A DNA stretch of 64,000 bases from Thermoanaerobacterium sp. RBIITD (GTDB lineage Bacteria; Bacillota; Thermoanaerobacteria; Thermoanaerobacterales; Thermoanaerobacteraceae): assembly GCF_900205865.1 (NCBI RefSeq), contig NZ_LT906662.1:620001-684000 (forward strand), given 5' to 3'. A program made the position numbers and the translations under genes. Below the pieces are notes generated by a model. The model searched no databases and was not told the origin of the DNA. It saw only the letters and a list, made by a program, of their open reading frames with translations. Within the stretch, counting starts at the first letter, position 1; every line of letters begins with the position of its first letter. Below, piece after piece: positions 2,716 through 18,265 of the stretch.

Positions 2716-3729
2716 ATGGATAAAATGGAATATCTACAAAAATATTATCCTAATACAGATAATAAAATTTTAGCAAATTATCTCGGTATATCTGAGCAAT
2801 CTGTCAGAAGATTGGCATCAAAAAATAATATATAGAAAAGTACAGAATACATAAAAAAGCAGCATGAATTACTTTTAAAAGTGAAAGAAGCAAAATACCT
2901 TTCACTTATTCCGAATATACGACCAACTAATTATCAATTAAATATAATTGTCGGTAGTATTTTGGGTGATGGAAATTTATCATACGCGCCGAGAAGTAGG
3001 AATGCTTATTATAGAGAGCATTTTTGCCAACAGCAATATGAATATAGACTGTGGAAATGTACACAGTTAAAAGATTTAGGCTTTAAGATAAATAAAAATA
3101 ATACTCTGCAATCAATATCTCATCCAATATTCTCAAATTTATATGAAAAATTTTATATTGATAATCGAAAAACCATTACTTATAATAATATTAAATTTCT
3201 TAATGATGCAGTAGGTCTTGCATGTTTTTATATGGATGATTGTAGCCTAGTAATTTCAAAAAATAAAAAGCCTAATATAACTGTTAATCCTATTATAACA
3301 TTATATACCTTAAACTTCTATGAAAAAGAAAATATTATTTTACAAGAACATATTTATAAAACTTTTAATGTTAAATTCAATTTAAAAGAGCATCCAGATG
3401 GTAAAAAATATATTTTAACAATTGGAAAAAGAGAAGAGGTCTTTAATTTTACAGATATTGTAAAACCATATGCTTGTCAAATATCCTGTATGGATTATAA
3501 ATGGAATATTGATAAAAGAATTATTGAAGAATGTAAAAAGGATAATAGAATAAATTTAAGTAATTTTTACAATAGAAAATTCTTATCATATACAAATGAT
3601 GATATAAGTAAAATTATTGATTTGAAAAATAATGGTTACTCCGATAGAGAAATTGCTAATAAGTTAAATAGATCATATTGGGGTATCGTATGGAAAATAA
3701 GAGATCTAAAAAAGAAAGATAAGATTTAA
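2716..3729 (+). pseudogene. LAGLIDADG homing endonuclease with an in-frame TAG
   Basis: One frame runs from ATG 2716 to TAA 3727-3729, interrupted by a TAG at codon 40 (2833-2835). The N-terminal piece (residues 1-39) is a helix-turn-helix (ILANYLGISEQSVRRL) and the homology continues straight past the TAG. The body carries two LAGLIDADG-type motifs: IIVGSILGDGNLS about 60 residues after the TAG, and LACFYMDDCSLV about 120 residues further. Both keep the acidic catalytic position, although the second has DC where DG is usual. A second helix-turn-helix ends the protein (DREIANKLNRSYWGIVW). The intact part could also start at GTG 2881 and give 282 residues. It points towards the flagellin gene but lies outside the group I intron there. 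Whether active enzyme is made (restart at 2881, or readthrough) is unknown. Confidence 0.8.
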
Positions 3730-3748
3730 GGGAGGCAAAGCCTCCCTT
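3728..3748. terminator. Bidirectional hairpin between endonuclease gene and hag
   Basis: AAGGGAGGC, a 3-nt loop and GCCTCCCTT form a perfect 9-bp stem. It overlaps the endonuclease stop codon and lies just after the flagellin stop (3753) on the other strand. The T tracts are weak on both sides. Confidence 0.6.
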
Positions 3749-3752
3749 ATTG

Positions 3753-4977
3753 TTATCTGAGTAATTGTAAAACTGTCTGTGGTTGTTGATTTGCCTGAGC
3801 TCTTCCAGGCCGGTCCCTTTCGGATACCGAATAGATCATATCTTCATCCTATCTATCGTTTGATAGGAGCCGGGCACTTCGGGTTAATCCCTACGGACTT
3901 CATCACCAAGGGCTTTATGCCTTTAGGTGGTATGTCCTGATCGTTGAACCTTCTCCAACCTTTCAGTACAGGAGCTTGGCTGCTGATTGCCCATATCCTT
4001 ACACTTTTCAACCTATCACGCTTATCCTTTCGGATTACGTTGTAGGGTGCGAGGCTCTAAGGGTTTCCCAGCAATTCACCCGGTAGTAATCCTGAAAATT
4101 ACTCTTCAGGACGCCTGTGCGAAACGGCTTATGCAGCCATTTCCTCAAGCATTGCTGTCGCTGCCTGATTCAGTATGTTGTCTTTTGTGAATTCCATCAT
4201 CTCTTTAGCCATATCAACATCTCTTATACGTGACTCTGCAGCTGTTAAGTTTTCTGATGCTGTGCCAAGGTTGTTTATAGTGTGTTCAAGTCTGTTTTGA
4301 AGTGCACCAAGACTACCTCTTTGTGCTGATACTGCATTTATCGCATTATCAATAGCACTTAAATCACTTGCTATTGAAGCTGTGTCATAGCAAGATGAAA
4401 CCGCTAATAATGTTCCACTTATAGCGCCAGTATTGTCAACACTAACTGATAATGCACCTACTGTTAAAATAGAAGCAGATGACATATTGCTAATTGATAA
4501 CTGAACTGTTTGATTTCCATTTGCACCAATTTGGAATGTTAAAGCCGAAGTTCCACTAATTGTTCCATCTAATAAATTCTTAGTATTAAATTGAGTTTGG
4601 CCTGATATTCTATTAATTTCTGCCGCTAACTGTCCTAATTCAGATTGAATATTTTTTAAATCATCTGGAGTATTAGTACTATTTCCAGCTTGTACAACAA
4701 GTTCTCTCATTCTTTGTAGTATTGATGAAGTCTCATTTAATGCACCTTCTGCTGTCTGAATTAGTGATATACCGTCTTGTGCATTTCTTTGTGCCATGTT
4801 AAGACCGTTGATCTGGCCTCTCATTTTCTCTGATATAGCAAGACCTGCTGCATCGTCACCAGCTCTATTGATTCTGTAGCCTGATGAAAGTTTCTCTAAA
4901 GATTTCTGTGTGTTTGTGTTATTAATGGAAAGTGCTCTCCATGCATTTAAAGCACTTATGTTGTGGTTTATTATCAT
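3753..4977 (-). CDS. hag: Flagellin, split by a group I intron (exons 4977-4148 and 3801-3753)
   Basis: Major filament protein, exported by the flagellar type III system. Exon 1 starts MIINHNISALNAWRAL, has the D0/D1 helices (SSGYRINRAGDDAAGLAISE) and a short central domain, then the C-terminal ESRIRDVDMAKEM helix. Read through, the frame runs into an intron and stops as MLEEMAA at 4129. Joining position 4148 to 3801 instead gives the canonical flagellin ending MLAQANQQPQTVLQLLR with a stop at 3753-3755, 292 residues in total. This is the usual length for flagellins lacking D2/D3. An AGGAGGAAGGA ribosome site precedes the ATG. It is the last gene of the flg-fliW-csrA-hag block and has its own sigma-D-like promoter and a CsrA-type leader. 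Confidence 0.92.
3802..4147 (-). ncRNA. Group I self-splicing intron in hag (346 nt)
   Basis: All four conserved core elements of group I introns are present in order on the minus strand. P is GAATTGCTGGGAAAC (4077-4063), Q is AATCAGCAGCC (3988-3978), R is GTTCAACGATCAG (3949-3937) and S is AAGATATGATCT (3844-3833). The predicted 5' splice site follows a U (exon ...AUGCU). The internal guide AGGCGU (4116-4111) pairs with AUGCUU and gives the expected U-G wobble at the splice site. The intron ends in G (3802), as required. It carries no internal open reading frame. A LAGLIDADG gene lies just beyond the 3' exon on the opposite strand. Splicing restores the flagellin frame exactly. Confidence 0.93.
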
Positions 4978-4980
4978 TTT

Positions 4981-5016
4981 TCCTTCCTCCTTGAATTTTT
5001 ATTCGGCATCCCTGCC
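4981..5016 (-). promoter_or_regulatory. Two CsrA-type GGA sites in the hag leader
   Basis: In the mRNA sense the leader holds GGCA-GGGA-TGCC (5016-5005), a 4-bp hairpin presenting GGA in its loop. About 10 nt downstream is the Shine-Dalgarno AAGGAGGAAGGA (4992-4981). This two-site layout, with the second site covering the ribosome site, matches CsrA repression of hag in Bacillus subtilis. csrA and fliW are the genes immediately upstream. Confidence 0.6.
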
Positions 5017-5110
5017 ATTAATGATTTGATTTGGTTTTTCTCATATGATTTTATCTTTTGTTTAAGATACTCAACAGCTGGCCAACTGCTTATCATTTGT
5101 TACACTATAT

Positions 5111-5137
5111 ATATCGATATGTTTTTATATTAGTTTA
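5111..5137 (-). promoter_or_regulatory. Sigma-D (SigD/FliA)-like promoter of hag
   Basis: On the minus strand TAAA (5137-5134), a 15-nt spacer and ATCGATAT (5118-5111) fit the flagellar sigma-28 pattern TAAA-N15-GCCGATAT. The -35 element overlaps the csrA stop codon. The leader to the ATG would be roughly 125 nt. Confidence 0.6.
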
Positions 5138-5362
5138 GTCTTTTTTGATAAAATTTTCTATCTGCCTTAATGTTACTTTATTTATATTTATGGCTTTTTT
5201 GTTTTCATCCCTAACTTCTAAGAGTTCTTTTCTTACTATGGAAAGATTTTTTGGTGCAGTTATTCCTATGCTTATGTTTTCACTATCAATGCTTAATATT
5301 TTTATCTCAATGTCATCCCCTATAATCAATGATTGACCGATCTTACGAGTGAGTATGAGCAT
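5135..5362 (-). CDS. csrA: Carbon storage regulator CsrA
   Basis: A 75-residue RNA-binding dimer beginning [20 protein letters not shown], the classic CsrA beta strands, with a longer C-terminal tail than the ~61-residue proteobacterial form, as usual in Gram-positives. It represses translation by binding GGA motifs at ribosome sites, and the hag leader immediately downstream has two such sites. Its start overlaps the end of fliW by 20 nt, which implies translational coupling with its antagonist. Confidence 0.95.
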
Positions 5363-5792
5363 TTTTCAGTTCCTCCAGTATAGGATGTTTTATCATATAT
5401 CTATCATCATCAAGTACAAGCTGCACAGCTTTATTGTTTTTGGCATTTATGATTACAGGGGCTTTTAAGTTTGCTGTCATCTTTTTTATCTCTTCTGGTA
5501 TTACAACGATCACATATGTAAGGATATGATTTATGTCTTCTATTTCAAGGGATTTTATTGTACCTTCATCAAGATTTACGGCATAATCTGGTTTTATTAC
5601 CTTTGGGTCAAGTATAACAAAGGCTATATTTGCATCATCGAGGGACTGCAGCCATTTGAATGGGGTATCCTCATCGGTGCTTAACAGAATAAAGTCTTTG
5701 AATCCCTCGAAACCTGGTATTCCATCATCAAAGTGGATTATATCCTCGGAATTGTACTGGACTTGTCCAAAGTTTTTTGTGGATATTTGCAT
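5343..5792 (-). CDS. fliW: Flagellar assembly factor FliW
   Basis: A 149-residue protein matching FliW over its whole length: start [21 protein letters not shown], then [14 protein letters not shown] and the [19 protein letters not shown] segment. FliW binds CsrA and relieves hag repression, and is itself titrated by cytoplasmic flagellin, giving a partner-switch feedback loop. Its gene overlaps csrA and lies two genes upstream of hag, exactly as in Bacillus. Confidence 0.95.
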
Positions 5793-16819: not shown

Positions 16820-18007
16820 TTATCTATTGAAGGCAAGTTTTTTTAAGATATCTACTTTATCAGTTCTTTCCCAGGTAAGGTCGAGGTCAGTCCTTCCAAA
16901 ATGGCCATATGCGGCAACTTGTCTATATATAGGCTTTCTTAAATCAAGGTCCCTTATAATTGCAGCTGGTCTTAAATCAAATACTTTCTTTACAATATCA
17001 GATATATCTTCATCGGGAATTTTGCCTGTGCCAAATGTATCTATATTTACTTCTAGTGGTGTAGCAACACCTATAGCATATGCTAATTGTACTTCACATT
17101 TATCAGCAAGTCCCGCAGCAACTATATTTTTAGCTACATACCTTGCAGCGTATGTTGCTGATCTATCAACCTTTGTAGGGTCTTTGCCTGAAAATGCTCC
17201 ACCGCCATGTCTCGCATATCCACCATATGTGTCAACTATGATTTTCCTTCCTGTGAGTCCACTGTCACCTTGCGGACCGCCAACTACAAATCTTCCCGTC
17301 GGATTTACAAATATCTTTGTATTTTCATCTATCATCTCAGGTGAAACAACGGGTTTTATGACATATTCTTTGATATCCTTCTCTATTTTATCATGATCAA
17401 CATCTGGTGAGTGCTGTGTCGATACAACTATTGAATCGACCCTTTTGGGTACGTCATCGACATATTCTATTGTTACTTGTGTTTTTCCATCTGGCCTTAA
17501 ATATTCTAGTGTGCCATTTTTTCTTACTTCTGAAAGTTTTTTCGCAAGTTTATGTGCAAGTGAAATAGGAAGCGGCATTAACTCTGGTGTTTCATTGCAA
17601 GCATAACCGAACATCATACCTTGGTCACCTGCACCTTGTTCTTCTATGTCATCATGTGACAAGCCTTTTTTTGCTTCTAATGCTTTGTCAACGCCAAGTG
17701 CTATATCCGGTGATTGCTCATCAATGGATGTAAGTACCGAACACGTATCGGCATCAAAGCCATACTTTGCACGAGTATATCCGATATCTTCAATAACCTT
17801 TCTAACTATTTTTGGTATGTCAATATAGCATTTTGTAGTTATTTCGCCCATGACCAAAACCATTCCCGTTGTTACAGCTGTTTCACAGGCTATTCTCGCA
17901 TATGGATCATTTTGTAATATCTCGTCAACAATTGCATCTGATATCTGATCGCATATTTTATCTGGGTGCCCTTCAGTAACAGATTCTGAAGTAAAAAACT
18001 TTCTCAT
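16820..18007 (-). CDS. metK: S-adenosylmethionine synthetase
   Basis: Makes SAM from methionine and ATP. The protein begins [20 protein letters not shown], with the ATP-binding GHPDK hexapeptide region, and has the [12 protein letters not shown] signature and the [17 protein letters not shown] loop. The frame opens at 18016, but AAAGGA abuts that ATG. The ATG at 18007 has proper spacing and gives 395 residues, the usual length. It is transcribed under the SAM-I riboswitch upstream. Confidence 0.97.
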
Positions 18008-18113: not shown

Positions 18114-18265
18114 GAGCAAAATAAAACCTCTCCAAAAGAAGAGGTATTTTTTACCCTCATCTTTCAGAAGAAAACTTCTGCGAGAATTAGCACCTTGTCA
18201 TTTGACAGGTTGCCGGGCTTCACAGGGCTCTTCCCTCCACCTCTCTTGATAAGAGTTCTTCGCTA
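18114..18265 (-). promoter_or_regulatory. SAM-I (S-box) riboswitch controlling metK
   Basis: The minus strand shows the S-box core in order: CTTATCAAGAGAGGTGGAGG, GCCCTGTGAAGCCCGGCAACC is reached next (split here as GCCCTGTGAAG and CCCGGCAACC), then AAGGTGCTAATTC and GAAAGATGAG. It is followed by an ACCTCT/AGAGGT hairpin and a TTTTATTTT tail (about 18152-18114), the expression-platform terminator. It should switch metK off when SAM is plentiful. Confidence 0.95.

Follow-up and report, generated by a model that had tools for sequence, protein, structure and literature searches.

Group I introns of flagellin genes, a neighbouring LAGLIDADG endonuclease and an Ala-Ala tail in Thermoanaerobacterium and relatives

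Introduction

Passages of PMC3984707 present group I introns as disfavoured in bacterial protein genes, because translation there is coupled to transcription. Flagellin genes of thermophilic Bacillaceae are a described place of residence (Hayakawa and Ishizuka 2009, 2012, cited through parts of PMC3984707 and PMC4853749), and these accounts tie the ribozyme activity to motility. The intron described here likewise lies in the flagellin gene of a Gram-positive, Thermoanaerobacterium sp. RBIITD; unlike the earlier examples, its lineage is Thermoanaerobacterales. The passages on the Bacillaceae introns mention neither an endonuclease gene outside the intron nor a tail encoded by it; at the present locus both are found. 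The DNA analysed, hereafter the window, comprises 64,000 nucleotides (contig NZ_LT906662.1, positions 620,001 to 684,000), and coordinates without a locus name refer to it.

How does this locus compare with other mobile systems? In the collaborative, or trans, homing of phages a free-standing endonuclease and an ORF-less group I intron share one target (PMC3984707, in part). Here, too, an ORF-less intron has a separate endonuclease gene close by. Unlike the phage systems, the present one resides in a bacterial chromosome and would involve a LAGLIDADG enzyme whose gene lies beyond the 3′ exon; moreover, it comprises two endonuclease types matched to insertion sites. The Geobacillus flaA2–flaG region contains the LAGLIDADG genes edn1 and edn2 (part of PMC5109656), which resemble ours in lying downstream of a flagellin. 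They are discussed together with a glycosylation island, and the word ‘intron’ has 0 occurrences in the text of PMC5109656.

The tail invites a third comparison, with the tmRNA (ssrA) tags, whose C-terminal XAA is recognized by ClpXP (parts of PMC12203970 and PMC8957991). According to passages of PMC12203970, the ClpXP of C. thermocellum degrades fragments with XAA ends; RsgI2-NF-FAA is not degraded, and its motif is functional in a chimera. The tails described below share the C-terminal Ala-Ala, and the YALAA found at one insertion site in the family that we call f136 equals the last five residues of ANENYALAA-type tags. Unlike a tag, this Ala-Ala is encoded in the intron, not added by tmRNA, and tags ending in YALAA come from other genomes. 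The open-access literature searched yielded no link of group I introns to degrons, ssrA or ClpXP; the passages of PMC13153191 and PMC10931766 that came up concern other matters. Flagellin group I introns are thus known, and what is new is an external, site-matched endonuclease and a conserved tail.

Results

The intron and its splice sites

The flagellin gene is on the minus strand. Exon 1 (4148–4977) extends from an ATG at 4977 to U4148, as delimited by its ORF, by the Pfam domains Flagellin_N and Flagellin_C and by intronless relatives. Exon 2 (3753–3801, minus strand) is 49 nt long and encodes AQANQQPQTVLQLLR and a stop, as judged from intronless relatives and the spliced translation. Between them, RF00028, covariation and nine empty sites define a group I intron of 346 nt (3802–4147, minus strand) with G3802 as its last base. 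This predicted intron interrupts the final, highly conserved stretch of the gene. Translation of the joined exons gives a flagellin of 292 residues with the C-terminus MLAQANQQPQTVLQLLR / ATAMLAQANQQPQTVLQLLR. If the intron is retained, the ORF encodes 282 residues and ends ATAMLEEMAA; the in-frame 5′ end of the intron (4129–4147, minus strand) supplies the end of ...LEEMAA-stop, with GCTGCATAA at 4137–4129.

Searched as a short stretch with permissive filters, the intron matches the Rfam model Intron_gpI (RF00028) at 59.3 bits (E 1.4e-14; 4133–3811, minus strand), the curated cut-off being 50 bits. A default fast cmscan over the whole window did not find it. In its own genome it is the sole Intron_gpI match at E ≤0.001. 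The folding energy of the stretch has a z of −4.95 against 100 shuffles, and single-sequence folding recovers the native core incompletely. Along the minus strand we located the internal guide CACAGGCGUCC (4109–4119), whose GGCGU pairs with the exon AUGCU to form P1; the 5′ strand of P3 running into P4 (CCGGGUGAAUUGC, 4071–4083), which covariation in related introns supports; the 5′ and 3′ strands of P7 (GGUUCAACGAUCA, 3938–3950, and GAAGAUAUGAUC, 3834–3845); and, from the Rfam alignment, the P9 hairpin (3811–3830). Among 15 related introns, 38 of the 83 predicted pairs are kept despite changes on both sides in at least one sequence. The core pairs, including P3–P8, are present, and the changes in P7 are compensatory: its two strands co-vary (ACUA/AGUC, AUCA/GAUC, ACCA/GGUC) in 102 of the 105 introns in which both were located. 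P10, by eye, is weak. In the site-A loci read, the 3′ splice site lies within a hairpin, GCCUG...CAGGC (3810–3793, minus strand), which could hide or present it.

Where exactly are the splice sites? In nine of nine intronless relatives from the window's order, ATG[C/T]T-NGCNCARGCRAAT is unbroken at the insertion point; the last two of the order's 24 genomes (G010 and G022) gave no match to the query. The same site is likewise empty in G009. These empty sites fix the junction to within a one-base ambiguity, in agreement with the U-G pair at the 5′ site, formed by U4148 and the first G of GGCGU, and with the terminal G.

A preliminary description of this DNA had proposed a flagellin gene split by a group I intron that ends in G, with 4148 joined to 3801 and the canonical C-terminus thereby restored. 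At the level of sequence each of these points holds: the covariance match is joined by covariation in related introns, the boundaries coincide with the uninterrupted exon of the intronless relatives, and the restored tail is theirs. The same description had suggested a covariance-model search, with absence of a match counting as refutation; once the filters are permissive, the match lies above the cut-off. It had also paired six bases of the guide with the exon. Five of these pairs stand, GGCGU with AUGCU and its U-G wobble, whereas the sixth, U4147-A, falls inside the intron. We are highly confident that the intron, both predicted splice sites and the 292-residue spliced product are as described here; the intron and its junction are as good as sequence can establish.

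Three insertion sites in flagellin genes

Flagellin introns occur at at least three insertion sites. Site A, that of the window, lies between ML and AQANQQ, and site C between RDVD and MAKEM; the third is site B. Of the 24 genomes in the window's order, 12 have an intron at site A and a thirteenth has a flagellin intron elsewhere. Within the genus the distribution is patchy, seven of nine genomes having the intron; since two lack it, the intron is dispensable. In f136, which we take to be Bacillaceae, judged partly by flagellin sequence, near full-length site-C introns are present in 35 of the 151 genomes sampled, as counted from the listed places. The supposition that such introns are a rare niche of thermophilic Bacillaceae does not hold: 13 of the order's 24 genomes carry one, and these f136 genomes carry theirs at another site. 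The intron counts given here rest on a search for the core motif in loci that had been fetched for resemblance to a query, and are no census; this search gave 114 distinct cores, 113 with a flagellin frame and one without.

The guide follows the site. GGCGU meets AUGCU in 20 of 20 site-A introns, giving five consecutive pairs, and GGGCGU meets AUGCCU in 21 of 45 site-B introns, where the exon–guide listing comprises the 14 commonest combinations, 38 of the 45. At site C the match is shorter, with three or four consecutive pairs in most introns. For class B the splice sites are tentative. In the assumed register 24 of the 45 introns form six consecutive guide pairs, and several pair poorly. In this class (L037:2621–2955 and 17488–17812, minus strand, in G042; also L045, L047, L048, L049 and L087) translation of the unspliced mRNA already runs to a full tail, ...PQGVLQLLR-stop, and this tail is encoded once more 3′ of the intron. 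Splicing would then choose between two functional C-termini. One f136 genome, G417, has introns at B and C within one gene.

In G009 the intron (L014:1493–1839, plus strand) is at site C and its guide differs by one base (CACAGGCGTCC vs CACAGTCGTCC). That it had hopped within its gene was considered and dropped, site C being an established site with many members; we read it as a member of the site-C lineage.

One scan of named genomes with an endonuclease alignment gave 11 loci, in Thermoanaerobacterium saccharolyticum, Thermoanaerobacter wiegelii, Moorella mulderi, Clostridium species and MAGs. A flagellin lies within the fetched stretch in nine of the 11, the exceptions being L044 (G020) and L051. 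The flagellin group I intron scores above the Rfam cut-off in L043, L046, L047 and L049, and below it in L045 and L048. A phylum sample of 398 genomes held the endonuclease in nine (E ≤1e-25), site-B intron DNA or relatives of it in 16 and Rfam group I introns in 29. The genome of one further locus, L101 (G277), has five group I introns of 340 nt and equal Rfam score, perhaps an IStron-like multicopy element.

The endonuclease gene beside the flagellin

Outside the intron, and associated with it, lies a gene on the plus strand that converges on the flagellin and ends 23 bases beyond the flagellin stop. Its LAGLIDADG_2 core (2881–3729) matches Pfam PF03161 (E 6.7e-23; 81.9 bits, cut-off 25) and is called HEase by PADLOC; profile A3, built from nine endonuclease relatives, matches I-SceI chains in the PDB (E 2.3e-9). 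Upstream is an N-terminal part that looks, by eye, like a helix-turn-helix (2716–2835, plus strand); in four relatives it and the core share one reading frame. From its sequence, a hairpin at 3728–3748 is the probable terminator common to both convergent genes. In the window an in-frame TAG (2833–2835) separates the N-terminal part from the core, and motif 2 is MDDC instead of the MDDG of the other five aligned sequences. The window's copy is therefore probably decayed, and probably dead.

Other copies are in better or worse repair. Intact genes of 336–337 aa, including the helix-turn-helix-like part, are present in G002, G004, G012 and G014, and broken ones in G008, G011 and G015. In G015, ORFs that look by eye like transposases (L041, 2250–8001) separate the intron-bearing flagellin from the endonuclease remnants. 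In G020 the endonuclease is on a separate contig from the flagellin, with its N-terminal part out of frame. The whole 282-residue query is covered in six of the 24 genomes of the order, 6/13 with an intron and 0/11 without; five of these six copies are directly downstream and convergent. G001, without intron, and G007, with it, have one common endonuclease deletion breakpoint, and G016, without intron, retains a rearranged remnant. We conclude that either of the two elements can be gained or lost without the other. That the endonuclease occurs solely beside an intron is contradicted by intact ORFs of its family near intronless flagellins (L085:3478–4437, minus strand; L086:2804–3718, plus strand).

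Is the endonuclease related to the insertion site? Two LAGLIDADG_2 types, 21–34 % identical over parts, occur downstream of these flagellins. The type matches the site in 34 of the 34 loci with a detectable neighbour, all distinct at the core: the 11 C-only loci have the C type, and the 10 A, six B and seven B+C loci the A type, with no mismatch. In each locus the score of the better type is about double that of the other, or higher. Query proteins came from six of the 34, and 28 of 28 match without them; L010 and L052 belong to one genome (G011), and the match in L110 is weak (27 % identity). Identical core neighbourhoods were dropped from this count, as were no-hit loci with less than 1,400 nt downstream. 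Another 18 intron loci, each with 1,400 nt or more of sequence downstream, show no such endonuclease there, and some of these may miss farther genes, as in G312, where the endonuclease ORF is about 3 kb from the intron (L084). Within f136 alone the split is 9 vs 7 (Fisher 8.7e-5). Relatedness inflates these statistics, and much of the agreement could follow phylogeny. The C-type genes are codirectional with the flagellin in the four loci outside f136 and convergent inside it.

The tail of the unspliced product

What does a ribosome meet on the unspliced message? The reading frame that enters the intron ends in AA-stop in 47 of 48 class C and 19 of 20 class A introns (together 66/68), and in LLR, LLK or LLQ in all 45 of class B. 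The two exceptions to AA-stop are YALTA (L178) and MLEVLAK (L159, whose upstream frame is no flagellin). The 68 A and C ends comprise 32 distinct 18-nt strings, and the wrong frames give AA-stop in 0 of 136 and TA in seven. Ala-Ala is in frame at sites that differ in phase by one base, and the stop that follows varies among TAA, TGA and TAG. Before Ala-Ala stands M, I, L, W or P in 20 of 20 class A introns; in class C it is L or I in 39 of 48 and charged E or K in nine. The preliminary description had called the 282-residue product a flagellin with a wrong tail. The end MLEEMAA is indeed what the unspliced frame encodes, but the conservation of its Ala-Ala, and the adjoining endonuclease gene, had been overlooked.

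Are these Ala codons kept for their protein or for their RNA? The codon changes on the two Ala codons of class A are [0,0,4] and [1,1,4]; codon counts favour selection on the amino acids, with pairing in the P1 extension as a confounder. Folding of 44 distinct site-C segments places the first two bases of the Ala codons mostly in predicted pairs; in 34 the last codon has its free third base unpaired. Since in most site-C introns the Ala codons sit in the predicted stem of the P1 extension, RNA structure alone could keep them; the changes in the last Ala codon at site C (0,0,16), once taken as near proof of coding selection, are weakened by this folding. Of the 20 site-A introns, 18 leave the last Ala codon unpaired, and in 17 of these 18 that codon is GC plus a free third base.

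We compared the tails with the tmRNA tags. The tag of the window's own genome is ANDNLAYAA. Of 23 further genomes, 17 yielded a tag with ARAGORN, and every one of these tags ends AA. A tail does not copy its own genome's tag: where the tag is YALAA the tail is YAEAA, and in f136, with YALAA tails, the two tags that were read finish in FALAA and LAFAA.

Group I introns outside flagellin genes, meant as a negative control, turned out partly positive. A selection of 71 further Rfam hits comprised 69 distinct introns, and an upstream frame was present in 62; HNH-like ORFs account for 11 of these frames, which leaves 51. Eleven of the 51 end in AA, 10 of them at one nrd site, TVAPTGK of ribonucleotide reductase-like genes, where 13 of 14 end in Ala and 10 of 14 in AA (L248, L252, L253, L258, L290–L292 and others). 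At a second nrd site 18 of 22 lack an Ala tail. The nrd and HNH labels are our own presumption from motifs. The tail is, on this comparison, not specific to flagellin.

Judged by eye, sigma-D-like promoter letters lie upstream of the flagellin (5000–5028, minus strand), and csrA- and fliW-like genes adjoin it (5135–5362 and 5343–5792, minus strand). A truncated flagellin might escape FliW–CsrA feedback. Elsewhere in the window the default Rfam scan gave a SAM riboswitch (18154–18255, minus strand; 88.9 bits).

Discussion

How might the parts of this locus work together? In the pre-mRNA the guide GGCGU would pair with the exon AUGCU and guanosine would attack after U4148; exon 1 would then attack after G3802, leaving the 292-residue flagellin, as structure, covariation and empty sites suggest. 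Translation before splicing would stop at intron bases 17–19 and yield a flagellin that lacks its C-terminal end and finishes Met-Ala-Ala. That end may be an intron-encoded degradation signal that removes a misassembling product. The LAGLIDADG endonuclease encoded just past exon 2 would cut flagellin alleles that lack the intron, in or close to the insertion site; in the repair that follows, with the donor as template, the intron, the 3′ exon and the endonuclease's own gene would be copied together. By association, a partnership of endonuclease and intron is likely, and we think it probable, though well short of certain, that the intron moves in trans by means of this external enzyme.

That the unspliced tail acts as a degron is a hypothesis that we put forward tentatively, by analogy with the ssrA tags. 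With the same reserve it can be widened to bacterial protein-gene group I introns at large: an ssrA-like X-Ala-Ala C-degron (YALAA in f136) may clear the faulty protein, or at site B the replacement tail PQGVLQLLR may offer two functional C-termini; in either way the cost to the host would be lowered, while the external endonuclease would spread the intron, the 3′ exon and its own gene.

Several of these steps can be read otherwise. It is highly improbable that there is no intron, that the flagellin truly ends in MLEEMAA and that 3801–3753 is a dead remnant: the unspliced frame is open and conserved, as this would require, but the group I covariance match and the covariation speak against it, and the canonical tail, that of the nine intronless relatives, is intact 3′ of the intron wherever the 3′ exon of a site-A locus was read (15 loci). 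A far stronger competitor concerns the tail. Ala-Ala-stop may reflect the hairpin of the P1 extension together with an early stop that shields the ribozyme core from ribosomes, the amino acids themselves being irrelevant. The mostly paired bases of the site-C Ala codons fit this, as do passages of PMC3984707 in which early in-frame stops are viewed as helping the intron to fold, and so do the 18 of 22 introns at the second nrd site that do without an Ala tail. Yet most site-A introns leave the last Ala codon unpaired and still have GC with a free third base there; the Ala-Ala frame survives the one-base difference in phase between sites; the stops vary; and the unrelated TVAPTGK site favours Ala-Ala as well. 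In our judgement the evidence for and against this RNA reading is about evenly balanced, and the degron remains the more tentative of the two.

Mobility and regulation raise alternatives of their own. The intron may be an immobile, vertically inherited passenger, and the endonuclease an unrelated mobile gene that favours the flanks of flagellins. Free-standing homing endonucleases do move alone (PMC3984707, in part), intact copies stand near the intronless flagellins of L085 and L086, and the part of PMC5109656 on Geobacillus flagellin islands has LAGLIDADG genes and mentions no intron. This is nevertheless unlikely in view of the full agreement between endonuclease type and insertion site, the patchy occurrence of the intron within the genus and the flagellin present in the fetched stretch in nine of the 11 named-genome loci. 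We regard it as slightly less doubtful, though still improbable, that the intron is a regulatory switch, for instance a thermosensor, whose splicing efficiency sets the amount of functional flagellin. Temperature-dependent splicing and motility have been described for the flagellin introns of thermophilic Bacillus (Hayakawa and Ishizuka 2012, via part of PMC4853749). The window's genus includes T. saccharolyticum NTOU1. This strain is a thermophile. Against a switch, two of the nine genomes of the genus manage without the intron. A switch and trans mobility with a degron are compatible.

Flagellin thus emerges as a gene family in which group I introns are common, recur at several sites and are patchy among relatives. 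Intron-bearing flagellins would receive wrong C-termini on annotation, and their introns offer a testable mechanism of spreading in trans. If the Ala-Ala tails are degrons, they would constitute an intron-encoded protein quality control, of which the open-access literature searched gave no report, and would explain how such introns are tolerated while splicing is slow or fails.
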